64,000 bases of DNA, from positions 1,401,504 through 1,465,503 of the forward strand of contig OY282355.1 of the NCBI GenBank assembly GCA_958295525.1, in the 5' to 3' direction. Numbering within the stretch: the first letter of the stretch is position 1; each line of letters opens with the position of its first letter. This DNA is from an uncultured Dehalococcoidia bacterium. Its GTDB lineage: Bacteria; Chloroflexota; Dehalococcoidia; Lucifugimonadales; Australimonadaceae. Below the pieces are notes generated by a model. That model saw only the letters and a list, made by a program, of their open reading frames with translations, ran no database searches and was not told where the DNA came from. The position numbers and the translations under genes are program-made. This document shows positions 1,613 through 25,603 of the stretch, piece after piece.

Positions 1613-2530
1613 GTGTCCCGCCCGGTCGTCATCGGCGCGCGAGGCGGCAAACTGTCGCTCGTCCAGGCGCGGGCGGTGGCCGCCGCGCTCGCAGGCGCCG
1701 CGCCCGGCCTCAGCGTTCGGGTCGAGGCGGTCGCCTCGGCGGGCGACGAGCAGCCGGATGCGCCGCTGGCGTCGCTCGGCAGAGGCGTTTTCACCTCCGC
1801 TTTGGAGCGCGCGCTGCTCGATGGGCGCATAGACCTGGCCGTGCACAGCCTAAAAGACCTCCCTACTCTGCAGCCGGACGGCCTCGCCGCCGTTCCCGTG
1901 CTGGAGCGCGAGGACGCGCGCGACGTTCTGGTGAACCGTTGGGGCGCCACGCTGCTGGACTTGCCTGCTGGCGCGCGCATTGGGACGAGCAGCCCGCGCC
2001 GCGCCGCGCAACTCGCGCACGGGAGAAAAGACATCGCGCTGCTCCCCATTCGCGGCAACGTGGAGACGCGCATCGCCAAGTCGGAGGGGCCGGACTACGA
2101 CGGCGTCGCGCTCGCGGCGGCGGGCGTCAACCGACTGGGAATGACCGGCCGCGTGGCGGAGTTTCTCTCGCCCTACGTTTGCGCGCCCGCGCCGGGGCAG
2201 GGCGCGCTGGCCGTCGAGGCGCGCTCGGACGACGCCGACCTGCTCGCGCTCGCGCGGCGGCTCATTCATCCGCCTACGGCGGCGGCGGTCGCGGCGGAGC
2301 GCGAATTGCTCCGCGCGGCGGGAAGCGGCTGCGCCTTGCCCATCGGAGCGTTCGCCGAAGCGCACGGAGAGGAGATGCGGCTGTTCGCATGCGCCGCGCC
2401 CGCCGACGGCTCGGCGAGTTACCGCGTCGAGGTCACCGGAGACTCGTCCGACCCGGAGGTTCTGGGGCGCGCGGCCTATCGCGCGCTACTGGAGCAAGGG
2501 GCGTCCGCGCTGCTGGATGCGCCCGAATGA
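1613..2530 (+). CDS. hemC: porphobilinogen deaminase (hydroxymethylbilane synthase)
   Basis: 305 aa. Polymerises four porphobilinogens into hydroxymethylbilane. Seen: GTSSPRRAAQL and PIRGNVETRI (substrate-binding arginines), LPTLQPDGL near residue 83, and AAGSGCALPIGAF near residue 240, whose cysteine carries the dipyrromethane cofactor. The chosen start is a GTG at 1613, 12 nt after hemA; the protein begins with the expected first strand (VVIGARGGKLS) directly after it. Its TGA overlaps the ATG of the next gene as ATGA, so translation is coupled. Confidence 0.96.
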   Translation: MSRPVVIGARGGKLSLVQARAVAAALAGAAPGLSVRVEAVASAGDEQPDAPLASLGRGVFTSALERALLDGRIDLAVHSLKDLPTLQPDGLAAVPVLEREDARDVLVNRWGATLLDLPAGARIGTSSPRRAAQLAHGRKDIALLPIRGNVETRIAKSEGPDYDGVALAAAGVNRLGMTGRVAEFLSPYVCAPAPGQGALAVEARSDDADLLALARRLIHPPTAAAVAAERELLRAAGSGCALPIGAFAEAHGEEMRLFACAAPADGSASYRVEVTGDSSDPEVLGRAAYRALLEQGASALLDAPE

Positions 2531-4047
2531 CGGCGAACGAGGGCGTCGTCTCCATCATCGGCGCCGGGCCGGGCGACCCGGGCCTCATCACCGCGAAAGG
2601 CGCTGAACTGCTGCGGAAGGCGGACGCGGTCGTCTACGACCGGCTCGTCTCGCCCGCGCTGCTGAGCCTGGCGGCGAACGCGGAACTCGTCTACGCGGGC
2701 AAAGAGCCGGACACGCCTGCGGATTCGCAGGAGTTCATCAACAGCCGACTCGTCGCGCTGGCGCGGCAGGGAAAACGAGTCGCGCGGCTCAAGGGAGGCG
2801 ATCCGTTCGTATTCGGGCGCGGCGGCGAGGAAGCGCTCGCGCTCACGGAGGCCGGCGTCCGATTCGAGGTTGTCCCGGGCGTGACGTCCGCCATCGCGGC
2901 GCCCGCCTACGCCGGCGTGCCGGTCACGCACCGGGGGGTCGCGTCCGCGTTCACGGTCGTCACGGGTTCGGAAGACTCCGCGAACCCCGGCGCAGGGTTG
3001 GATTGGAGCGCGCTCGCCAAAACGCCCGGAACGCTCGTCGTTCTGATGGGTTGGCGCAACCTGCCCGCCGTCGCGGACGCGCTGATGCGCGGGGGGCGCG
3101 CGCCTGAAACCCCTGTTTGCGTAACGCAGTGGGGCACGCTCCCGCAGCAGCGGACGGTGAGCGCAACGCTGGCCGACGTCGCTGCGAAAACGGCGGAGGC
3201 GGGACTCACGGCGCCGGTGGTCGCCGTGATCGGCGAAACCGCCACCCTCCGGCCTTCCCTCCGCTGGTTCGACAAGGGGCCGCTGTTCGGCAAGCGCGTG
3301 CTGGTGACGCGCTCGAGGGCGCAGGCAAGCGCGCTCAGCCGCTTGCTCGCCGAGCGCGGCGCGGAGCCGGTCGAACTGCCCGCGATAGCGGTACGCCCCC
3401 TCGCGGACGCATCCGCGCTGGACGCCGCGCTGTCGGAACTGGGCGGCTTCGACTGGGTTGCGTTTACGAGCGCGAACGCCGTCGAGGCCGTGTTCGAGCG
3501 GCTCGCGGCGCAAGGGAGAGACGCGCGCTCGTTCGCAACGGCGAAAGTCGCGGCCATCGGCCCGGCGACAGCGGAGGCGCTCCGCGAGCGCGGCATAGCC
3601 GCCGACCTGGTTCCGTCGGCCTCGACCGGGCAATCGGTGGCGGAGTCGTTCGCCGAGCGGAGCGTTCGCGGTGCGCGGATGCTCCTCCCGCGCGCGGACA
3701 TCGCGTCGCCCGCGCTGCCCGACGGCTTGCGGCTGCTGGGAGCGGCGGTGACGGAGGTCGCGGCTTACCGCACGGCGGCGCCTGCGGACGCGGCGGCGCA
3801 GGCACGGGAGACGCTCGCGTCCGGTATGCTGGACGCCGTCACGTTCACGAGCGCGTCGGCGGCGCGCAACCTCGTCGGTCTGCTTGGCGGCGACGCGGGC
3901 TTGGTGAACCGGAGCAAGGTCGTCTCCATTGGGCCGGTCACGAGCGCGGCGGCGGAGCAATTGGGAGTGCGCGTGTCGGCGGAGGCGCGGGAGCACACCG
4001 CGCAGGGCGTCGTGGACGCGGCGCTGGAGGCTATGAGCGATGGTTGA
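2527..4047 (+). CDS. fused uroporphyrinogen-III C-methyltransferase / uroporphyrinogen-III synthase
   Basis: 506 aa with two domains. Residues 1 to about 245 are a SUMT/CobA methyltransferase: [16 protein letters not shown] at the N-terminus, YDRLVSP, then [13 protein letters not shown] and [23 protein letters not shown]. This makes precorrin-2 for siroheme or cobalamin. From about residue 250 ([12 protein letters not shown]) to the end is a HemD domain, with [18 protein letters not shown] and [18 protein letters not shown], which closes hydroxymethylbilane to uroporphyrinogen III. One polypeptide thus makes uroporphyrinogen III and diverts it to the corrinoid/siroheme branch. The same frame stays open upstream, but the domain starts right at the ATG at 2527, which overlaps hemC (ATGA). 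The end overlaps hemB by 8 nt. Confidence 0.95.
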
Positions 4048-5065
4048 CCCGTTCGCGCTCGGGCGCGCAGACGCTGAAACCGCGCGCTTCCCGCAGGCGC
4101 GCCCGCGAAGGCTGCGGCGCATGCCCGCGCTCCGCGATATGATGCGCGAGACGTCGCTCCGCCCCGCCGACTTCGTCTACCCCGTGTTCGTAACGCCCGG
4201 GCGGGACGCGCGCATCCCCATCGGCCCGATGCCCGGGCAGGCGCAAGTCTCCGTGGACAACCTCGTCCGGGAGGGGGAGGAAGCGGCGTCGCTGGGGATT
4301 CGCGCCTTGCTGCTGTTCGGCCTTCCGCCCCGCAAAGACGCGCTCGGAACGGGCGCCTACGCGCCGGACGGTATCGTTCAGGAGGCCGTCGCCGCTCTGA
4401 AGAGCGCCCTCCCCGGTCTGGTCGTGATCACGGACGTCTGCCTCTGCGAATACACCGATCACGGACACTGCGGAACGCTGCGCGCGGACGGCTCCATCGC
4501 CAACGACGAGACGCTCGATCTGCTCGCGCGGACGGCCGTCTCGCACGCGGAGGCGGGAGCGGACGTCGTCGCGCCGTCGGCGATGATGGACGGCCAAGTG
4601 GCCGCCCTCCGCAGCGCGCTGGATGCGGGAGGATGGACGGACGTCGCGGTGATGGCCTACGCATCCAAGATGGCGTCGGCTTTCTACGGGCCGTTCCGCG
4701 CCGCGGCGGACTCCGCTCCGCAGTCCGGCGACCGCAAGTCGCATCAAATGGACGGCGCGAACGCGCGGGAAGCGATGCGCGAACTGCGGCAGGACGCCGC
4801 CGAGGGAGCGGACATCCTCATGGTCAAGCCCGCGCTCGCGTACTTGGACATAATCGCCCGCGCCCGCGGCGCATTCGATCTGCCTATCGCGGCCTACAAC
4901 GTCTCCGGCGAGTACGCTATGCTGCGCGCCGCCGCCGCCAACGGCTGGCTGGACGAGCGCGCCGCGATGCTAGAGACGCTTACGAGCATCAAGCGCGCGG
5001 GCGCGGACGTCATCATCACTTATTTCGCAAAGGACGCGGCGCGGCTGCTGCGGGAAGAGGCGTAG
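4040..5065 (+). CDS. hemB: delta-aminolevulinic acid dehydratase (porphobilinogen synthase)
   Basis: 341 aa, typical length. Condenses two 5-aminolevulinates to porphobilinogen. Visible: the metal-site segment [14 protein letters not shown] (cysteines for a Zn site), [17 protein letters not shown] containing one active-site Lys, and [13 protein letters not shown] with the Schiff-base Lys. The ATG lies inside the end of cobA-hemD (ATGGTTGA overlap), indicating translational coupling. Three conserved cysteines suggest a zinc-dependent rather than a purely Mg-dependent type; that is inferred. Confidence 0.97.
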
Positions 5066-21133: not shown

Positions 21134-22471
21134 CTACAGCGGCCAGTTGTCCTTGATGCCGGCCACGGCGCCCTCGCCGGAGACGCGGGCGACGATTTCG
21201 TCCTCGGACTCGGCGGGGGCTTTGTCGGGGAGTTCGTCCCACGTCTGCAGGACGCGGTTGATCAGTTCGCCGTCGCGGGAGTAGCCGGCCTCGCCGGGGA
21301 TGTACTTCTTGGCGCGCTTCATGCCGAACTTGACGCGCTCCAGCGGCGCGACGATCCCGCCTTCCGGCGAGGGCGTTCGGAACACGTTCATCGGGTCGCC
21401 GCCGTCGGCCACGACCGCCATCTGCTCGCGCAGCAGTTTGCGGTAGAGGATGACGCCGCGGTCGGACTCGCCGAGGTGCTCCAAATTGCGCTTGGCGATC
21501 GGCCCTTGCGTGACCCACATCGTGTAGTCCTGATTGAACACGACGTCGACGATCCAGCGGCCGTTTTCGTCGATGAGGGGCACCTCGCGGTAGGGGACGG
21601 ACTCCTGCGTGGGGACGGGCTGCCCCGGCGCGCCGCGCCACGTGTAGAGCGACACGTGCATCGTGTGCTCGTCGTCCACCGGCACGCGGAACTGCATTGT
21701 GACGGAGACCTCGGAGCCAACGAGGAGGATGTTCGGCACGAACACGGGATGCCCGTGCTTCCAGTCGTCGTCCTCCTCCGTGTAGCCCTTGAACACGCGC
21801 CGCTTGACGACGCCGTTCTCGAAGATGTCGAAGCCGATCTTCTCGTGCGTCGGAAGGTCGAGCAGCGCGCCCTTGAAGCCCGGCCCCTGCTGGACGTATT
21901 GCCCCCAGTAGGAGTGCGCCCACTCGACGTGCACGGGGTCGAGCGAGTTCTCCTGGCATTGCAGCCAGTTGCAGGGGAGGGGCGCGATGGCGATGTCGCG
22001 CACGGCGTTTTCCCATACGAGCGGCTCCCACAGCGGGAGGTACGGGGCGGGCTGCGGGCCGAGGTAGGCGAACACGAGGCCGCCGGCGGTCTGCACGGGG
22101 TAGCCCGCGATCTTCACTTTCTCCTTGAAACGCCCATCCGGGTGAACGGTTTCCTCGAACGGCTGCTCGATGCACTGGCCGGTCTCATCCATCATCCAGC
22201 CGTGGTACATACAGCGGAGGCCGCGCTCCTCGGGGATGCCGTAGGAGAGGTCGACGCGGCGGTGGGGGCAGAAGCGCTCGATGAGCCCCATCGTCCCCGA
22301 CTTGTCGCGGTAGAGGACGAGGTCTTCGCCGAGGAGCCGGACGGCCTTGGTGGGGCGGTCGTCGAGTTCGGCGGCCGCGGCGACGGGGTGCCAGTAGCGG
22401 CGCATCAGTTCGCCCATCGGCGTGCCGGGTCCGACCTGCGTGAGTTCCTGATTGGCCTTGACGGTGAGCAT
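21134..22471 (-). CDS. Rieske non-heme iron oxygenase, large subunit (phthalate dioxygenase-like)
   Basis: 445 aa. Rieske cluster ligands Cys68/His70 in FCPHRRVD and Cys87/His90 in CMYHGW. Mononuclear iron ligands His181 and His186 with bridging Asp178 in NSLDPVHVEWAH. Such oxygenases use electrons from a reductase to oxygenate aromatic or other ring substrates; the substrate cannot be told from sequence. It closely resembles the gene at 49525 along its whole length, so the two are recent paralogues. No reductase or ferredoxin gene is adjacent. It has a good promoter upstream. Confidence 0.93.
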   Translation of the reverse strand: MLTVKANQELTQVGPGTPMGELMRRYWHPVAAAAELDDRPTKAVRLLGEDLVLYRDKSGTMGLIERFCPHRRVDLSYGIPEERGLRCMYHGWMMDETGQCIEQPFEETVHPDGRFKEKVKIAGYPVQTAGGLVFAYLGPQPAPYLPLWEPLVWENAVRDIAIAPLPCNWLQCQENSLDPVHVEWAHSYWGQYVQQGPGFKGALLDLPTHEKIGFDIFENGVVKRRVFKGYTEEDDDWKHGHPVFVPNILLVGSEVSVTMQFRVPVDDEHTMHVSLYTWRGAPGQPVPTQESVPYREVPLIDENGRWIVDVVFNQDYTMWVTQGPIAKRNLEHLGESDRGVILYRKLLREQMAVVADGGDPMNVFRTPSPEGGIVAPLERVKFGMKRAKKYIPGEAGYSRDGELINRVLQTWDELPDKAPAESEDEIVARVSGEGAVAGIKDNWPL

Positions 22472-22524
22472 AGCGGCGTCTCCTCGCGTGCGCGTTGTCC
22501 GTGGGCGTGGATGTTCGTATGCGT

Positions 22525-22553
22525 AAGGTAGCGCCCGCGCCCGCGCCGGTCAA
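22525..22553 (-). promoter_or_regulatory. promoter of the Rieske oxygenase gene
   Basis: On the minus strand TTGACC and TACCTT are separated by exactly 17 nt. The transcript would begin about 45 nt before the ATG at 22471, and a GGAG site lies before the ATG. Confidence 0.5.
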
Positions 22554-22571
22554 GCGCGGCGGAGAGCGGGG

Positions 22572-22859
22572 TTAGGGGCGGAGGTTAACTTGCGTCACGC
22601 CTTCTCCCCCGCGATCAGGCGAGGCATAGAAGAAGGCGGCGACGTATTGCCGCACGCCCTCATCCTGTTGCAGCAGCCGCCGGACTTCTTGGCGGACCGG
22701 CCCCGTTCCGTCGCCGCCCTGCCCTTTGCCGTGAATGATGAACACGCGGAAGTGGCCGGCTCTGCACGCTCTGTCGAGGAACGCGACGACTATGCCGCGC
22801 ACGTCGTCCACGCGGGCTCTCATCCGCAGGTTGAGTTCGTCGGGCGCCTTGCGCGTCAA
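22572..22859 (-). CDS. Smr-domain protein
   Basis: 95 aa. ELNLRMRARVDDVRGIVVAFLDRA followed by FRVFIIHGKGQGGDGTGPVRQEV (HGKG at residues 43-46) is the Smr domain, a small MutS2-C-terminal fold with nicking or RNA-cleaving activity in some members. Here it stands alone. The typical first Leu-Asp-Leu-Arg is LNLRM, a mild deviation. It starts 24 nt after the selenoprotein gene in the same direction and is probably cotranscribed. Confidence 0.8.
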   Translation of the reverse strand: MTRKAPDELNLRMRARVDDVRGIVVAFLDRACRAGHFRVFIIHGKGQGGDGTGPVRQEVRRLLQQDEGVRQYVAAFFYASPDRGGEGVTQVNLRP

Positions 22860-22883: not shown

Positions 22884-23597
22884 CTAACTGCTCTGCAGGC
22901 CAGGCGCCTCCGTTCCGGCGTTGTACTGACGGAGCGTGTCGAGCACCGACGCGGCCGAAGGGCGGTCGCCGATGCTCTGCCCCACTTGAATGGCGACCAC
23001 CCGCTCGGAGTCCACCAGAATCGTCGCGGGCGCGGCCACGCCGTCGCCGAGCAGATCGAACACGCCGTAAGCCTCGGCGGTCGAGCGGGTCGGGTCGGCG
23101 AGGATGGGGTAACTCGCGCCGACGGTCTGCTGCATCCGCTGCGCTCCGGTGATGTCGTCCACGCTGATCGCAAGCAGTTCCGCGCCCTCCCCCCGGATCT
23201 CTTCGTAGGCGTCTTCCAACTCGCCGAGTTGGGTGCGGCAAGTCCCTCAGAAAAAGCCGCGGTAGAAGACGATGACGACGATCTTGTTCTCGGCGAGCGA
23301 GCCGGAGAGGCTGACGAGGCCGCCCTGCGCTGCGGCGAGTTGGAACTCGGGGGCGGGCAGCCCGGACGCGGAGTCGGGCGCCGGAGAAGGCGCCTGTTCC
23401 CCGTTCCCCCCGCACGAAAGCGCGAAGATGGGAACGAGAAACGCTAGGACGACGAGGAGCGAGAAAGCGACGAACACGCGCCGCCACAAAGGGCGCTGCA
23501 GAAAGGGAACGTGGTCGTCCGGCAGGCGGTTGAGTTCCTCGATCTCCGCCAGTTCCCGCTCGGTGAACCCCTGATCGTTGCCGTGGTGGTCGCGCAT
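22884..23597 (-). CDS. membrane-anchored peroxiredoxin-like selenoprotein (in-frame TGA = Sec)
   Basis: One frame interrupted by a single TGA at 23247-23249. Reading it as selenocysteine gives 237 aa with Sec117. The sequence around it is VIVFYRGFFUGTCRTQLGEL, the thioredoxin-fold motif FYRGxxCxxCxxQL of AhpC/TSA_2-type peroxiredoxin-like proteins, with U in place of the first cysteine (UxxC). After it the fold continues: ELLAISVDD, YPILADP, AEAYGVFD, TILVDSERVVAIQVG. Before it come an acidic N-terminus, a transmembrane helix near residues 41-61, a Pro/Ser linker, then the domain, so the active site faces outward. A hairpin fitting a bacterial SECIS follows the TGA. ATG 23597 is preferred because an earlier ATG (23642) lies inside the MoaD gene. 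A naive annotation would show two fragments. Confidence 0.85.
23216..23232 (-). promoter_or_regulatory. bacterial SECIS hairpin
   Basis: On the mRNA, CCAACTC-GGC-GAGTTGG forms a perfect 7-bp stem with a GGC loop. The loop starts 22 nt after the UGA. Known bacterial SECIS elements are stem-loops about 16-37 nt after UGA with G among the first loop bases, and this fits. It lies inside the coding region, as expected for bacteria. Confidence 0.8.
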
Positions 23598-23610: not shown

Positions 23611-23892
23611 TTAGGCCGCGCCTCCCGCGACGGCGGGGACAATGCTCACCTCGTCTCCGGCGTTCACCGGAGTGGCGAGGCCGTCGAGGAAACGGACGTC
23701 CTCGTTGTTGAGGTAGAGGTTGACGAAGTAGCGCAGCGCGCCGTTCTCGTCGAGGACGCGCTCCTGAATGCCCGGGTAGACGGCCTCGAGTTCGGCGATG
23801 ACGCCGCCGAGCGTGTCGGCGGTCACGGACGCCTTGTCGACCCCGTTGGTGATCCGGCGCAGCGGGCCGGGAATGCGGACGGTGACGCTCAT
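23611..23892 (-). CDS. MoaD/ThiS-family sulfur carrier protein
   Basis: 93 aa beta-grasp protein: VTVRIPGPLRRITNG at the start, GGVIAELEAVYPGIQERVLDENGALRYFVNLYLNNEDVRFLDGL, then GDEVSIVPAVAGGAA at the end. Carriers of this family are thiocarboxylated on a C-terminal Gly-Gly. Here two alanines follow GG, so a protease would have to remove them, as the JAMM protease Mec+ does for CysO-like carriers. It lies between the NIL gene and the selenoprotein gene, in line with thrC. Role: sulfur donor for cysteine or another thio-product (inferred); no molybdopterin genes are near. Confidence 0.85.
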   Translation of the reverse strand: MSVTVRIPGPLRRITNGVDKASVTADTLGGVIAELEAVYPGIQERVLDENGALRYFVNLYLNNEDVRFLDGLATPVNAGDEVSIVPAVAGGAA

Positions 23893-24004: not shown

Positions 24005-24262
24005 TTACGGTTCGATGAGGTCGCCCAGCGCCGGGTCCACCCGCACGCCGAGCGAGCGCACCCACTCCAGCCCCCGCTCGATCTCGTCGGCCTCGCCCTC
24101 CACTTCCAAGATCACCCAGCCCACGCCTTCCTGCACGTCGGCGCGCCGGATGTTGGTCGCCACGTCGAAGTTCCGCCCCATGCGGTAGACGACCGGCTCC
24201 TTGATCATCCGGTCGAGGAAGGTCAGGCGGACGCGCTGCATCGTGAGAGCCACGGCGTTCAC
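24005..24262 (-). CDS. NIL-domain protein
   Basis: 85 aa, from a GTG (24262) overlapping the thrC stop as GTGA, or from ATG 24241. VRLTFLDRMIKEPVVYRMGRNFDVATNIRRADVQEGVGWVILEVEGEADEIERGLEWV is the NIL domain, a ferredoxin-like fold found at the end of methionine ABC ATPases and in stand-alone form. It is thought to bind a small ligand such as a sulfur amino acid. The gene is translationally coupled to thrC and followed by the MoaD-like gene, a combination that points to sulfur amino-acid metabolism (inferred). Confidence 0.88.
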   Translation of the reverse strand: MNAVALTMQRVRLTFLDRMIKEPVVYRMGRNFDVATNIRRADVQEGVGWVILEVEGEADEIERGLEWVRSLGVRVDPALGDLIEP

Positions 24263-25485
24263 GCGCGGACGGCGGCGCGCTCCTCGAACGCCGCCACCGT
24301 GCCCTCGATCAGGATCGGACGCGCCACGTCGCTCACGATCTCCGTCGTCTTGAGCCCGTTGCCCGTAATGTAGACCACCGTGGATTCGTCGCGCCGGATC
24401 ACGCCCCGCTCGACGAGCCGCCTCAGCCCCGCGACGGCGACGCCTCCCGCGCTCTCCGTGAAAATCCCCTCCGTCTGCGCCAGCAGTTTGATGCCCTCCG
24501 CCACCTCGTGCTCCTCCGCGATGACGGCGGAGCCCTCCGACGCCTCGATCGTCTTCAGCGCGTAGTACCCGTCCGCCGGATTCCCGATGCCGAGCGACTT
24601 GGCGATGGTCGCCGGCTTCACCGGACGGATGACGAACCGCTCCTCCTCATACGCCGTTGCGATAGGCGAGCAGCCGCGCGCCTGCGCGCAGTGCATCCGC
24701 GTCTCCACCGGGCCGATGATGCCGGTCTGCTCGAACTCCTTGAACCCCTGGTAAATCTTCGTGAACATTGCGCCGGACGCCGACGGCGCCACCGCGTGCT
24801 TCGGAGCGCGCCAGCCCAACTGCTCCGCCGCCTCGTAGCCCAGCGTCTTGCTGCCCTCCGCGTAGAACGGGCGCACGTTGATGTTCACGAACGCCCACGC
24901 GTACTGATCGGCGAGTTCGCTGCAAAGGCGGTTCACATCGTCGTAACTGCCGTCCACGGCGATCATCGTCGGATTGTAGATCGCCGCGCCCAGCACCTTC
25001 CCGTGCTCCAAGTCGGAGGGAATGAACACGTAGGCGGTCATTCCGGCGCGCGCGGCGTGGGCGGCGACGGAGCACGCGAGGTTCCCCGTCGAGGCGCACG
25101 CCAGCGTGTCGAACCCCAGTTCAATCGCTTTGGCGGCCGCCACGGCGACGACGCGGTCTTTGAACGAGTACGACGGGTTGACGCTGTCGTTCTTGATCCA
25201 GAGTTCGTCGAGGCCGAGCCGTTCGGCGAGCCCCCGCGAGCGGATGAGCGGCGTGAATCCGGCGTTGATGTCCACGGCCGGGTTGTGTTCGGCGGGCAGG
25301 AAATCCTGATACCGCCACAGGCTCGGCGGCCCGGCCTGAATCCGTTCGCGGGACGCGATGTCCGCGATGGCCTCGAAGTCGTAGACGACCTCCAGCGGCC
25401 CAAAGCAGAAATCGCAGACGTTGAACGCGCTGACGGGGTATTCCCTAGAGCATTCCTTGCAGCGAAGCGCGGCGACGTTCACCAT
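24259..25485 (-). CDS. thrC: threonine synthase
   Basis: 408 aa from ATG 25485, which has GAGGAGG upstream; the frame is open earlier but without homology. N-terminal zinc ribbon (Cys9, Cys12, Cys24, Cys27: CKEC...CDFC). PLP Lys109 in SYSFKDR. ACASTGNLACSVAAHAARAG and PSASGAMFTKIYQGF follow. Converts O-phosphohomoserine to threonine. Related PLP enzymes in gene runs with NIL and MoaD-like carriers could use thiocarboxylate sulfur instead, so the substrate is not certain. Confidence 0.9.
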   Translation of the reverse strand: MVNVAALRCKECSREYPVSAFNVCDFCFGPLEVVYDFEAIADIASRERIQAGPPSLWRYQDFLPAEHNPAVDINAGFTPLIRSRGLAERLGLDELWIKNDSVNPSYSFKDRVVAVAAAKAIELGFDTLACASTGNLACSVAAHAARAGMTAYVFIPSDLEHGKVLGAAIYNPTMIAVDGSYDDVNRLCSELADQYAWAFVNINVRPFYAEGSKTLGYEAAEQLGWRAPKHAVAPSASGAMFTKIYQGFKEFEQTGIIGPVETRMHCAQARGCSPIATAYEEERFVIRPVKPATIAKSLGIGNPADGYYALKTIEASEGSAVIAEEHEVAEGIKLLAQTEGIFTESAGGVAVAGLRRLVERGVIRRDESTVVYITGNGLKTTEIVSDVARPILIEGTVAAFEERAAVRA

Positions 25486-25603
25486 TGGCAACCTCCTCGC
25501 GTGCGAGCGCTCAACGCGCGCGGCGGTTCGCCTACTCCGCGCGCGCTGCCCGAAACCCTCCGCGTCCGCGCAGGCCGGGCGGCGCATCGTTCACGCGGAG
25601 CAT

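Follow-up and report, generated by a model that had tools for sequence, protein, structure and literature searches.

Organization of the locus

The window, a 64,000-nucleotide stretch of the 2.51 Mb single-contig genome of an uncultured Dehalococcoidia bacterium, holds on its minus strand a single reading frame that runs from an ATG at 23597 to a TAG at 22884 and is interrupted only by a TGA at 23247–23249. An earlier sequence-only reading joined two same-phase frames across this TGA, and the joined frame is indeed otherwise open. Readthrough yields a product of 237 residues with the TGA as residue 117, at the first Cys of a redox motif (FYRGFF[U]GTC) as that reading had placed it, and the product matches Pfam family PF00578 (AhpC-TSA) as a complete fold domain with 94.7 bits (cut-off 26; E 5e-27). 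The features of the locus are as follows.

22884..23597 (-), predicted selenoprotein gene, 237 aa, start ATG 23597, stop TAG 22884, with one in-frame UGA
23247..23249 (-), UGA codon for putative Sec117 (UGTC motif), assigned because the same column is TGA in 126 homologues and Cys in four close ones
23216..23232 (-), bacterial SECIS-like hairpin, 7 bp with a GGC loop, assigned from conservation, synonymous covariation and a codon-preserving folding test
22908..23372 (-), AhpC/TSA (peroxiredoxin-like) domain, residues 76–230, holding U117, C120 and P190
23421..23492 (-), transmembrane helix, residues 36–59, with RPLWRR before it and LSC after it, assigned from the AlphaFold2 helix and a hydropathy of 2.89
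23493..23597 (-), acidic N-terminal segment, predicted cytosolic and conserved in the genus (ERELAEIEELNRL)
23611..23892 (-), ThiS/MoaD-like sulfur-carrier gene (PF02597), the upstream neighbour in 16/16 family loci
24005..24262 (-), NIL-domain gene (PF09383), present in 15/16 family loci
24259..25587 (-), thrC-like PLP enzyme gene (PF00291) with a real TGA stop, present in 15/16 family loci

The UGA codon and the hairpin downstream

TGA serves as an ordinary stop in this genome, terminating the thrC-like gene next door and 16 of 46 long frames in a rough call, which would fit a pseudogene or two genes split at a real UGA stop. Comparison with relatives already refutes that explanation, and we consider it exceedingly improbable. 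Homologue searches covered sets of 98 and 250 genomes, almost all from the window's own order, from which the loci were then extracted, and in 130 close homologues from this order column 117 is TGA in 126 distinct sequences and Cys in four (L042, L043, L160, L172), so that UGA or Cys is kept at this catalytic column in place of a random residue. Beyond the TGA, moreover, the frame goes on to encode a conserved domain, and the hairpin described below covaries. Identity within the same genus is 60–65%, and three changes on the tree suffice to account for the Sec and Cys states. Homologues from other classes of the phylum likewise have TGA at the Sec position, remoter matches carry Cys, Ser, Thr or other residues there, and a contig scan of other genomes returned only distant Cys or Ser/Thr homologues (actinobacteria, cyanobacteria and others). 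Within this order the Sec form of the redoxin prevails almost without exception.

The machinery for selenocysteine insertion is complete in the same genome, with selA (498.6 bits), selB (341.2 bits), selD (370.2 bits, with one in-frame TGA) and a tRNA-Sec with anticodon UCA. Together with the homologues and the use of TGA to end neighbouring genes, this argues strongly against a reading of the UGA as Trp or another amino acid through a changed code or leaky readthrough: the close homologues that lack the UGA carry Cys and not Trp, no support for either route was found, and such recoding has next to no probability here.

The selD gene of this genome (L016, C1:230609-231529) is, with its in-frame TGA, probably itself a selenoprotein gene.

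The perfect 7-bp hairpin with a GGC loop noted in the sequence-only reading is present as described (CCAACTC-GGC-GAGTTGG; arms at 23232–23226 and 23222–23216, loop at 23225–23223). It spans 15–31 nt after the TGA, with the stem starting at 15 nt and the loop at 22 nt, and it is conserved in relatives, where at least six of the seven pairs are kept in 111 of 125 Sec genes as against one of 20 Cys genes. The stem is encoded by QL-x-EL codons and the loop codon begins with G in 122/125, and the third position of the Gln codon is base-paired with the first position of the second Leu codon. The Gln-Leu combinations at these codons are CAG-CUN in 54 genes, CAA-UUR in 52, CAG-UUR (a G-U pair) in 14 and CAA-CUN (a mismatch) in one, giving 106 matched pairs, 14 G-U pairs and a single mismatch, although both swaps are synonymous. 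CAA is accompanied by UUR in 52 of 53 cases (98%) at the hairpin, whereas UUR makes up 23% of Leu codons elsewhere in the same genes, and the element is a clear instance of a SECIS within a coding region that synonymous covariation brings to light. Mapped on the tree there are 23 changes at one covarying site and 24 at the other; well-supported branches alone provide about four informative independent pairs, all in one direction and too few for significance.

When folding energies of 45-nt segments are compared with codon-preserving resamplings in the 125 genes, those that start at 0 and +15 relative to the TGA are the only ones clearly more structured than expected (mean z of -0.66 and -0.89, SE 0.10), and mean z values for the rest of the gene lie between -0.3 and +0.2. 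The window's own hairpin is not significant by folding energy when taken alone (z = -1.3), and the significance of the element derives from the comparison with relatives and not from single-sequence energy. Because the column keeps UGA or Cys, the Sec machinery is present and the hairpin is conserved and covaries, the comparative case that the gene encodes a genuine selenoprotein is very strong.

In one genus, loci with a Sec gene also hold a homologue whose residue in the Sec column is Asp, Asn, Ser or Gly and which lacks a CxxC (L154, L155, L161, L162, L166-L168, L170), and these homologues are possibly inactive partners.

Some relatives contain more than one Sec codon. In L039/L099, L089, L092 and L094 a single frame, free of other stops, encodes a pair of redoxin domains and contains two in-frame UGAs; each UGA in L039, L089, L092 and L094 is likewise followed by a SECIS-like hairpin. 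The L126 gene, from a single-contig genome (minus strand, 2250-4365 on the reverse complement), has three domains and three UGAs with the same hairpin after each; close to the frame's end lies a fourth UGA, probably a real stop. Three Sec redoxin genes stand in tandem at L109, L111, L116, L117, L121, L123, L127 and L137. Few bacterial selenoproteins are known to carry as many as two or three Sec residues in one chain.

Active site, membrane anchor and gene context

The peroxiredoxin-like fold suggested at the outset is supported by the PF00578 match and by an AlphaFold2 model built from a 47-row alignment (A1), with a mean pLDDT of 88.5 and values of 97–99 for most blocks of the redoxin domain. 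The closest solved structures to the model are peroxiredoxins, namely Bcp4 (Z 22.6, rmsd 2.0 over 152 residues) and AhpE (Z 22.1). In the profile alignment the motif Pro and Thr of AhpE (which we take to be P38 and T42), its peroxidatic Cys and its catalytic R116 (the last identified by an R116A entry) correspond to R113, U117, C120 and P190. Arg113, U/C117, Cys120, Gln123, Leu124 and Leu127 are invariant across the 47 rows, and Pro190, which replaces the catalytic Arg of peroxiredoxins, is present in 45 of the 47.

We considered a typical peroxiredoxin as a candidate identity and rejected it, since the fold agrees but R113, U117 and P190 stand at the positions of the PxxxT/SxxC signature and its Arg. 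A related alternative is that the product is a selenoprotein and yet a true peroxidase, in which extracellular peroxides are reduced by Cys120 or Sec117, with resolution by the other of the two residues and re-reduction of the enzyme by a thiol. The fold and the nearest solved relatives speak for this, as do the alignment of Cys120 with the peroxidatic Cys of AhpE and the cyanobacterial homologues with FYRGFFCPRD, which retain the first Cys alone and thereby indicate that the Sec position can act alone. The presence of RxxxUxxC in place of PxxxT/SxxC and the replacement of the catalytic Arg by Pro argue against it, and we regard a peroxidase as somewhat unlikely. Pro190 would presumably be the cis-Pro found in thioredoxins, and since the protein has lost the peroxidase signature and has instead a UxxC with Pro of the thioredoxin type, the likeliest chemistry is selenol:disulfide exchange.

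The sequence-only reading also called for a transmembrane helix ahead of the domain, and both the AlphaFold2 model and hydropathy support one. In the window's genus the N-terminus starts with a conserved acidic segment, continues through a short positive flank into the helix, and has a Cys (mostly SC) after it; the family's other genera have the helix and mostly no Cys at that place, and among relatives in the rest of the order a signal of lipoprotein type (AACG and the like) predominates. With all of these anchor types the redox domain is predicted to lie outside the cytosol, in keeping with the extracytoplasmic Sec that was originally envisaged. A Pfam search of the genome found no homologue of DsbD/CcdA, VKOR or MauE, a negative that counts against an extracytoplasmic disulfide reductase because it leaves no candidate reductant, and a search for SCO1 was empty too.

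Our preferred explanation, which we hold to be probable, is that the gene encodes a Sec117 selenoprotein whose extracytoplasmic peroxiredoxin-like domain is a selenol:disulfide oxidoreductase and not a classical peroxiredoxin. UGA codon 117 would be read as Sec by SelB and tRNA-Sec(UCA) under the guidance of the nearby hairpin, as the comparative data indicate, and the product would be a single-pass membrane protein with its N-terminus inside. Sec117 would be an exposed nucleophile paired with Cys120 in a thioredoxin-type UxxC, attacking a disulfide or some other oxidised substrate to give a mixed selenenylsulfide that Cys120 would resolve.

The position of the gene after MoaD-like, NIL and thrC genes was borne out by Pfam, which places all three just upstream. 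They are found together upstream in 15 of the 16 loci of the window's family, both Cys versions included, and the sixteenth (L028) has only ThiS within the locus. This context is conserved only in the window's own family, neighbours outside it being different, and the Smr and Rieske neighbours on the other side (21134–22859) are not kept among the relatives within reach. The Sec protein might serve these genes, for example in sulfide, persulfide or thiocarboxylate redox reactions at the membrane, a role compatible with the selenol:disulfide oxidoreductase reading. The retention of the neighbourhood across family loci favours it, but the redox domain is predicted outside whereas ThiS is cytosolic, and the homologues checked beyond the family lack these neighbours, some adjoining CopC/CopD instead; we think such a role quite unlikely. 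The context points to no single pathway. A broader proposal, which is tentative and in our view unlikely, is that the mostly-Sec tethered redoxins across the phylum, with their two- and three-Sec chains, may form a dedicated extracytoplasmic selenium redox system with a membrane donor, coupled in the window's family to ThiS-dependent sulfur metabolism.

Two further observations concern neighbouring genes. The ThiS-like carrier (23611–23892) ends in AGGAA, and its counterparts in five congeneric species end exactly in AGG. Seen beside the thrC-like and NIL genes, this suggests a carrier-protein sulfur route into amino acids. CopC/CopD copper genes lie near Sec redoxin lipoprotein genes in seven loci (L033, L035, L036, L087, L088, L093, L177), a proximity for which a link to copper handling is possible.

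Relation to known redoxins and selenoproteins

Points of comparison include SelL, which has a UxxU motif, and ResA, a membrane-tethered extracytoplasmic CxxC oxidoreductase. ResA (PDB 1st9, 2h1b) is matched by profile at E 2e-18, and the window protein differs from it in having Sec for the first Cys and in belonging to a genome without a CcdA/DsbD homologue. The best NCBIfam match is the SelL-related redox protein model NF040769, which all 47 aligned members match at E 0.001 but for which the window protein scores 52.5 bits against a curated cut-off of 120; every other NCBIfam match is also well below its cut-off, and the gene is therefore likely to be split in annotations. The motif letters resemble those of the UGSC-containing selenoprotein NF041046, which gave no match to the window protein in an HMM scan at E 0.1. 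Compared with the peroxiredoxins AhpE and Bcp4 (PDB 1xxu, 3hjp) the fold is alike (Z ~22, rmsd ~2, 150 residues) and Cys120 occupies the peroxidatic position, but PxxxT/SxxC and the catalytic Arg are lacking.

Prx-like thiol:disulfide oxidoreductase selenoproteins are defined by PF00578 together with UxxC or UxxU (PMC9312934, PMC13188914), and UxxC selenoproteins of the AhpC/TSA family have been tabulated repeatedly (PMC1088965, PMC2398784, PMC9312934, PMC13188914), including 22 Prx-like selenoproteins from the Sargasso Sea (PMC1088965). By its PF00578 score and its U117-G-T-C120 motif, the window protein belongs, as far as sequence can place it, to this class, which has been known for two decades. 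The earlier description of the protein as undescribed thus does not hold for the broad class, already tabulated in those four papers, and would stand only at the level of a subfamily; the literature searched yielded no account of this UGxC subfamily.

With the Prx-like class ('Prx-like 1', PMC2398784) the window protein shares the Pfam family, the UxxC with Sec first and the suggested chemistry. It differs in being membrane-tethered, in its UGxC, and in two active-site residues, with Arg in place of the motif Pro and Pro in place of the peroxiredoxin Arg, and multi-Sec fusions occur among its relatives. The ratio of 126 Sec to 4 Cys in the window's order also differs from the 225 Sec and 2,740 Cys members of Prx-like 1 in the GOS data (PMC2398784). 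What would be new is at most a distinct subfamily, with UGxC, a membrane tether, thrC-NIL-ThiS neighbours in its own family and scores below every NCBIfam cut-off, and it adds to the known Prx-like proteins a well-supported selenoprotein subfamily missed by present annotation models.
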